A DNA stretch of 32,188 nucleotides from Lachnospiraceae bacterium (GTDB lineage Bacteria > Bacillota > Clostridia > Lachnospirales > Lachnospiraceae): the NCBI GenBank assembly GCA_014804345.1, contig JAAUZZ010000024.1:1-32188 (forward strand), read 5' to 3'. Numbering within the stretch: position 1 is the first letter of the stretch; every line of letters starts with the position of its first letter. Positions 1 to 704 of the stretch are shown here, piece after piece. The notes beneath the pieces were generated by a model. It had not been told where the DNA came from. It saw nothing but the letters and a program-made list of their open reading frames with translations, and did not search any database. The position numbers and the translations under genes were made by a program.

Positions 1-75
1 CAGACAGACAGACAGACAGACAGACAGACAGACAGACAGACAGACAGACAGACAGACAGACAGACAGACAGACAG
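1..75 (+). repeat. CAGA tetranucleotide tract inside hsdS
   Basis: There are eighteen complete CAGA units plus CAG with no interruption, and the tract begins at the window edge, so the true number is unknown and may be larger. In the hsdS frame it is read as a four-residue cycle of Gln, Thr, Asp and Arg (three units = 12 bases = 4 residues). The unit length is not a multiple of three, so gain or loss of one unit shifts the frame. The two other frames meet TAA at 76-78 and at 80-82, directly after the tract. Slipped-strand mispairing at such tracts is the known basis of phase variation. Confidence 0.97.
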
Positions 76-704
76 TAATTAAACTTTTGCAGTATGTGTT
101 TGGTATTGTATATGTTAGACTTGGAGATGTAGCGACAATAACAAGGGGAGGCAATTTTCAAAAGAAAGATTTTGTTGAGCAAGGTTTTCCATGCATTCAT
201 TATGGGCAAATATATACAAGTTTTGGCATTTATACTGATAAGACCATCAAAAACGTATCAGAAGATGCAGCGAAGAAGTCAAAAAAAGCAGTGAAAAATG
301 ATATTGTTATGGCTGTTACAAGTGAGAATATAGACGATATATGTAAATGTGTTGCATGGTTAGGGGATGATGAAATTGCAGTTAGTGGACATACGGCAAT
401 TATCCATCATGACCAAAATCCAAAGTTTTTAGCATATTATTTTTACACTGAGGATTTTTTCAAGCAAAAGAAAAAATTGGCACATGGAACAAAAGTGATT
501 GAGGTATCGCCAGATAAATTGAATGATATTATCATTCCGTTGCCGAGCATTGAAGAACAAGAACGTATTGTATCGGTTTTAGACCATTTTGATACTTTAT
601 GCAATGACCTTTCCGATAGACTGTCAGCAGAAATAGAAGCAAGACAAAAACAATATGAATACTATCGTGACAAGTTATTAACTTTTAAGGAGTTGAGCGA
701 ATGA
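1..704 (+). CDS. hsdS: Type I restriction-modification specificity subunit HsdS, 3' half (5' end outside window)
   Basis: This is the DNA-recognition subunit of a type I restriction-modification complex. Only the second half is present. The frame is open from the window edge (first full codon at 3) through the CAGA tract, then gives a target recognition domain starting near VRLGDVATITRGG. It closes with the typical distal conserved region: IPLPSIEEQERIV followed by a coiled-coil helix ending in EARQKQYEYYRDKLLTF. A TTG at 87 is the first recognisable start after the tract but has no good ribosome site, so I treat the ORF as a continuation through the repeat. The first target recognition domain and hsdM should lie upstream. 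The stop overlaps the hsdR start as ATGA, which indicates translational coupling. In the present frame the gene is ON; a change of one repeat unit would leave only the upstream half-subunit. Confidence 0.9.
   Translation, partial: DRQTDRQTDRQTDRQTDRQTDRQTVIKLLQYVFGIVYVRLGDVATITRGGNFQKKDFVEQGFPCIHYGQIYTSFGIYTDKTIKNVSEDAAKKSKKAVKNDIVMAVTSENIDDICKCVAWLGDDEIAVSGHTAIIHHDQNPKFLAYYFYTEDFFKQKKKLAHGTKVIEVSPDKLNDIIIPLPSIEEQERIVSVLDHFDTLCNDLSDRLSAEIEARQKQYEYYRDKLLTFKELSE

Follow-up and report, generated by a model that had tools for sequence, protein, structure and literature searches.

The first 704 positions of a 32,188-nt stretch from a Lachnospiraceae bacterium (GenBank assembly GCA_014804345.1, contig JAAUZZ010000024.1; this whole stretch is called the window here) hold the 3′ part of a type I restriction-modification specificity gene, hsdS, which begins at the contig edge within a tract of CAGA repeats. 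In our view, this tract probably acts as a slipped-strand switch through which a third target recognition domain (TRD) is gained or lost at the C-terminus of a complete EcoR124-like type I HsdS. More tentatively, a repeat-controlled, tethered third TRD might turn a single-specificity enzyme into a polypeptide that assembles at least two recognition pairs at once (TRD1+TRD2, TRD1+TRD3, and TRD3+TRD3), and this arrangement might be widespread.

The tract fills positions 1 to 75 with 75 bp of perfect CAGA (18.75 units; Tandem Repeats Finder score, 150; 100% match) and codes for (Gln-Thr-Asp-Arg)n in every frame. Because window position 1 is the first base of the contig (C24), the tract is cut at its 5′ end, and 18.75 units is a minimum. 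Directly 3′ of the tract, a double off-frame stop cassette (76 to 82) closes frame 1 (TAA, 76 to 78) and frame 2 (TAA, 80 to 82); frame 3 is the sole frame open past the tract (3 to 704, 233 aa). A preliminary description of this DNA had reported at least 18.75 perfect units within an hsdS frame and a single frame reading through, and both observations were borne out. The module that follows, a TRD with its conserved helix (209 aa, 75 to 704, stop codon at 702 to 704), is open in frame 3 only and contains a single Pfam Methylase_S domain (PF01420, 111 to 641; E = 1.4e-16). It ends in a helix region (552 to 701; ...AEIEARQKQYEYYRDKLLTFKELSE) that, judged from relatives, belongs to the class of the second conserved region (CR2). 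All of these features lie on the forward strand. The repeat unit, whose length is not a multiple of 3, thus stands in a coding frame with both other frames stopped, as in an hsdS that is phase variable through a simple sequence repeat. The tract is the only site with at least five CAGA units in the 2.11-Mb, 76%-complete assembly, and none of 100 dinucleotide-preserving shuffles of the window contained a comparable one.

A search of the family with the window protein matched 125 of 397 genomes at an E value of ≤0.001, some via the repeat alone. When one genome per species was scanned for the tract together with the conserved QYVFG start, 94 stretches were found, 80 of which were listed (L065 to L144); carriers among these 80 are mostly Clostridia by recorded names, which were unchecked for metagenome-derived carriers. 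Counts of upstream open reading frames (ORFs), phase, off-frame stops, and third-TRD length cover all 94 loci, while the random-codon stop control, TRD pool matches, close-pair comparison, ratios of nonsynonymous to synonymous substitution (dN/dS), and CR identities cover the 80 listed. The ORF before the tract measured 365 to 470 aa in 42 of the 45 loci where it was complete. A QYEYYRD-type conserved-region motif occurred twice upstream of the tract in 40 of these 45, a count that overlooks variant motifs; the five with one motif were L146 and L158 (second variant CR by eye), L124 (419 aa), and the short L069 and L110. Where the upstream frame stops just past the tract (OFF), Pfam found two Methylase_S domains in all 12 products submitted (27 OFF references were available from the first 80 loci), and where it reads through (ON), three Methylase_S stretches were found in all eight proteins tested, each about 600 to 640 aa long.

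Two genomes of the same genus carry this arrangement. In G422, hsdM and a 273-aa ORF are followed by an intact three-TRD hsdS of 629 aa, in the ON phase with a tract of 31 bp, and then by hsdR; the third TRD there shares 85% identity with the window module. In G403, one contig holds a two-TRD HsdS that leads into a tract of 107 bp followed by 17 nt from the start of the third module, and another (C66, L189) holds a third TRD 89% identical to the window module, behind a 57-bp tract, together with hsdR. The preliminary description had placed the tract just before the second TRD and had named a different upstream architecture as grounds for giving up that placement. Two TRDs with their conserved helices do stand upstream in relatives, among them G422 and G403 (on its upstream contig); the window's own sequence begins inside the tract. 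These comparisons make it very probable that the window module is a third TRD, and they do not support the earlier placement; we infer the same architecture for the window, whose upstream half is missing.

The upstream frame was readable in 61 loci, of which 18 were ON and 24 and 19 fell into the two OFF frames, which fits one third each (P = 0.60). The 33 others lack a readable frame: most begin at the tract, L106, L122, and L153 contain N gaps, L068, L103, and L113 have non-HsdS sequence, and L099 has a variant motif (among the 80 listed loci, it was read as OFF). Repeat counts in relatives, which the preliminary description had proposed as a check, do vary and shift the frame, between species and not within one strain. 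For example, L128 (102 bp, OFF) and L140 (48 bp, ON) are 92% identical over 1.5 kb, and L105 (18 bp, ON) and L125 (35 bp, OFF) are 91% identical; L073 (39 bp) and L133 (63 bp; Blautia caecimuris DSM 29492), 98.6% identical over 572 nt, are both OFF. The single-contig genome G668 is in the OFF phase, with 58.75 units.

Both off-frames stop within 15 nt past the tract in 93 of the 94 loci, including 80 of the first 80; when codon positions were picked at random in the same TRDs, 18.5% had both stops within 20 nt. When the same peptides were recoded with random synonymous codons, 29.8 of 94 loci were expected to have both stops, and distinct cassettes with both stops numbered 69 of 70, compared to 22.0 expected (for the first 80 loci, the expected values were 25.7 of 80 loci and 19.7 of 61 cassettes). 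The double stop persists even though the peptides encoded past the tract differ, so selection seems to favor a clean end of the two-TRD protein. Other repeats occupy the same hsdS/third-TRD junction elsewhere, namely, (GA)20 in L058 (6200 to 6239) and four copies of the 7-bp ACGAGCA in L052 (reverse strand, 6456 to 6483), and in each case both off-frames close within 20 nt.

The third domain itself appears to be maintained. It was at least 175 aa long in all 18 ON and all 40 OFF loci where the module ends within the locus. Its dN/dS was 0.045 to 0.21 in 11 pairs (0.12 for the window versus L113), with OFF/OFF values of 0.10 (L072-L087), 0.06 (L133-L121), and 0.21 (L073-L133), and it is under purifying selection. 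The third conserved region (CR3) was closer to CR2 than to CR1 in 31 of 31 relatives (identities of 0.73 for CR2-CR3 and 0.50 for CR1-CR3). TRD3 was similar to TRD1 or TRD2 over >60% of its length in 9 of 34 genes by BLAST, at ≤49% identity (L096, whose first TRD is cut, is left out of this comparison). TRDs are common to all three positions, with TRD3 matching the TRD1 pool in 48 of 80 and the TRD2 pool in 32 of 80 (≥40% identity, ≥70% coverage), which fits real recognition. An EcoR124-like type is indicated by the adjoining HsdR, which has EcoR124_C, SWI2/SNF2, and HSDR_N domains, and by the best PDB sequence match of the L105 ON protein, the EcoR124 S subunit. TAEL, the spacer repeat of EcoR124I-type systems, was found in CR1 of 29 of 35 relatives. 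Foldseek returned the same HsdS matches as VIA-align.

Going by the sequences of relatives, an out-of-phase repeat would end translation within about 15 nt past the tract, giving a normal TRD1-CR1-TRD2-CR2 HsdS, and an in-phase repeat would give TRD1-CR1-TRD2-CR2-(QTDR)n-TRD3-CR3 from the same gene. The OFF form would then direct methylation and restriction of one bipartite site (TRD1+TRD2). In the ON form, TRD3-CR3, on a flexible linker and with a CR2-class helix, might replace TRD2-CR2 beside TRD1-CR1 or might pair with another TRD3. One polypeptide could in this way provide more than one specificity, by analogy with JHP1422 (M.Hpy99XV) of Helicobacter pylori J99, a three-TRD HsdS with experimentally shown dual specificity in the available text of its report (PMC3936762). 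Such a third TRD would change the enzyme from one specificity to several, and the population would come to contain cells with different methylomes and different restriction. Control of a phasevarion by the tract is possible. If the wider proposal of at least two simultaneous recognition pairs is true, the restriction repertoire and the methylome would widen and narrow stochastically while basal activity is never lost.

Several points weigh against a switched third specificity. The window holds no upstream hsdS half, and its own TRD1, TRD2, and ON/OFF phase are not in the assembly. The 94 loci are related by descent and not independent, and the differences in repeat number are between species, not within one population. 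Three of the 45 complete upstream ORFs are short (L110, 87 aa; L069, 93 aa; L096, 249 aa); we read them as disrupted, and L096 still has two CR motifs. Non-HsdS sequence lies 5′ of the tract in G403:C66 (612 nt, directly adjoining), L068 (76 nt), and L103 (113 nt), which we read as chimeric joins at the repeat. In L146 (ON, 99 bp), the exception to the close stop pair, the off-frame stops come at 32 and 39 nt and the tract leads straight into QYVFG, and the third module is short in L078 and L155, 2 of the 33 loci whose state is unreadable. JHP1422 differs as well: TRD2 and TRD3 differ here, whereas those of JHP1422 are described in the accessible part of the same report as identical, with an origin ascribed to duplication and with TRD1 alone inactive. 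Finally, the AlphaFold ON model (pTM, 0.45; low-confidence linker) sets TRD3 apart rather than exchanged, and the ON form could be inhibitory or structural instead.

This last possibility, in which the ON third TRD blocks or retargets the enzyme without a usable new specificity, either as an off-switch or by bridging enzymes through TRD3-TRD3 pairing, is unlikely but deserves consideration. The model shows TRD3 as a free module resembling a half-S subunit, and the single-TRD half-S module of the Vibrio vulnificus HsdM-S(1/2) fusion (7eew) resembles the TRD3 part of the ON model. That half-S is fused to HsdM, however, and the accessible sections of its report mention no repeat switch (PMC12429846). 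Single TRDs can work as presumed homodimers, as TRD3 of JHP1422 does alone according to the portion of that study at hand; in the same portion, the whole three-TRD subunit is active with two sites, which, like the sharing of TRDs among all three positions, argues against a purely blocking role.

It is also conceivable, but improbable, that the switch mainly tunes restriction. In OFF cells, ribosomes would stop about 620 nt before hsdR, so that HsdR would fall while methylation goes on, and TRD3 would be secondary. The TRD3 stop does overlap the start of hsdR in the window (701 to 3841, forward strand; 1,046 aa, EcoR124-type by ORF and Pfam) by 4 nt, and the two frames also overlap in G422. Nevertheless, hsdR has its own AAGGAG within the end of hsdS (687 to 692, forward strand), by sequence a likely ribosome-binding site; another ORF stands between TRD3 and hsdR in L045, L048, L049, L053, and L054; and TRD3 itself is under purifying selection. 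Translational coupling as the main effect was rejected because hsdR appears to have its own ribosome-binding site. An internal start of TRD3 in the OFF phase was considered as well; the in-frame TTG at 87 shows no evident ribosome-binding site.

The preliminary description had favored a switch between half and full subunits, with the tract between the first and second TRDs and a truncated half-subunit that dimerizes. There is precedent in NgoAV of Neisseria gonorrhoeae, where, as far as the available text of the report extends, a polyG tract ends a 208-aa half HsdS (the truncated hsdS1), loss of a G fuses the second half, and fused and truncated forms differ in specificity (PMC9577141). With two TRDs before the tract in relatives and the three short upstream ORFs read as disrupted, we consider this very improbable here, and the half-subunit model was rejected on the architecture of relatives. 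What stands of that proposal is the switch, which remains likely given the in-frame tetranucleotide and the off-frame stops; its OFF product would be a normal two-TRD HsdS instead of a half-subunit.

The tract starts at the locus edge in 24 of the 94 related loci, and 15 of these 24 edge tracts measure 52 to 55 bp, a clustering that suggests the k-mer size of an assembler. That the repeat is neutral or an assembly artifact is hardly credible, for although the window tract is itself at a contig edge and one same-genus contig looks chimeric at the tract, the tract lies inside the locus in 70 of 94 cases, one carrier genome is a single contig, which contradicts an artifact, and neutrality would hardly account for the off-frame stop cassettes or the second repeat types.

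Seen as an added third TRD under repeat control, the locus shares features with several described systems. Like NgoAV in the available account, it has a simple repeat within hsdS whose slippage would alter specificity rather than silence the enzyme; unlike in NgoAV, the tract follows TRD2 (in relatives), and the short form would be a whole HsdS. Like JHP1422, the ON relatives have three TRDs in one reading frame (all eight tested and G422; this is not visible in the window), but the accessible part of the JHP1422 report describes no slippage tract (PMC3936762). TRD1-TRD2-TRD2 forms of HsdS and the effect of the spacer repeat in EcoR124I-type systems are both already known from what is available of another source (PMC3077401). 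The HsdR C-terminal family, TAEL in CR1 of relatives, and the PDB match of L105 are shared with EcoR124I-type systems, where the spacer repeat alters TRD-TRD spacing, whereas the CAGA tract would add a whole third TRD. Type I specificity also changes within a strain in hsdS systems switched by recombination, as stated in the available part of one paper (PMC7394358); those recombine hsdS copies, and the window's contig carries no second hsdS and no other Methylase_S domain. Four inverted repeats of at least 18 nt were found in window positions 1 to 9000, none touching hsdS, whose upstream part lies outside the window.

In the same part of that paper, 7.9% of hsdS genes hold simple repeats (PMC7394358), and members of the group described here may be among them without this description. 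In the portions of the literature at hand, the repeat switches known from type I genes either turn the enzyme off or toggle between a half and a whole subunit. No description of a repeat-switched third TRD was found in the literature searched, which did not cover the main 2020 survey of repeats in type I genes. Repeat-switched hsdS genes, three-TRD HsdS proteins, and spacer repeats are each known, and their combination is new as far as our searches reach. Neither phase looks null, since the default product would be a whole HsdS, to which the other phase adds a domain. Within a single strain, cells may differ in the sets of sites at which their genomes are marked and defended, and the choice among three TRDs on one chain by a type I enzyme becomes testable. 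With 94 stretches carrying the arrangement in a collection of one genome per species, and Clostridia making up most of the 80 listed, epigenetic heterogeneity in gut Firmicutes could commonly arise from it. The third TRD is easily recorded as an orphan fragment, since assemblies frequently break at the tract.

No hsdM is seen at the window locus because the contig starts within hsdS; in relatives, hsdM is present 5′ of hsdS. Methylase_S and N6_Mtase searches of the window's own assembly found no upstream hsdS half, with matches only at another type I locus, which lies on contig C27 and contains the single hsdM of the assembly. That locus (L182, G000:C27:17000-29000) comprises hsdM (499 aa), hsdS (415 aa), an integrase-like ORF (332 aa, named by eye), a 169-aa ORF, a second hsdS (380 aa), and a 1,139-aa ORF, with direct repeats of 75 and 69 nt at 80 to 84% identity, and may switch by recombination. 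Extra ORFs of 273 to 277 aa occur between hsdM and hsdS in L178 (G422) and L180 (G403), and those between the third TRD and hsdR in L045, L048, L049, L053, and L054 are 219 to 507 aa long.

CAGA tracts of 15.5 to 36 units also occur elsewhere in genomes of the family (L060 to L064), some within ORFs. No adjoining hsdM- or hsdR-like ORF was seen at these tracts, for which no domain search was made, and they were excluded from the analysis; the CAGA repeat may switch other genes there. A likely defense island lies 3′ of hsdR in the window. It contains a GmrSD_N (DUF262) protein (3911 to 5098; PADLOC, NsnA), an overlapping AAA ATPase (5095 to 6525; best PADLOC match, ATPase-Toprim_I-B, with NsnB weaker), and a DUF2971 protein (7358 to 8644) matching PDC-S31. 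An 11-bp tandem repeat (TTTACCCAAGG and variants) forms two intergenic clusters (6853 to 6899 and 7029 to 7082), about 130 bp apart, 5′ of the DUF2971 gene.
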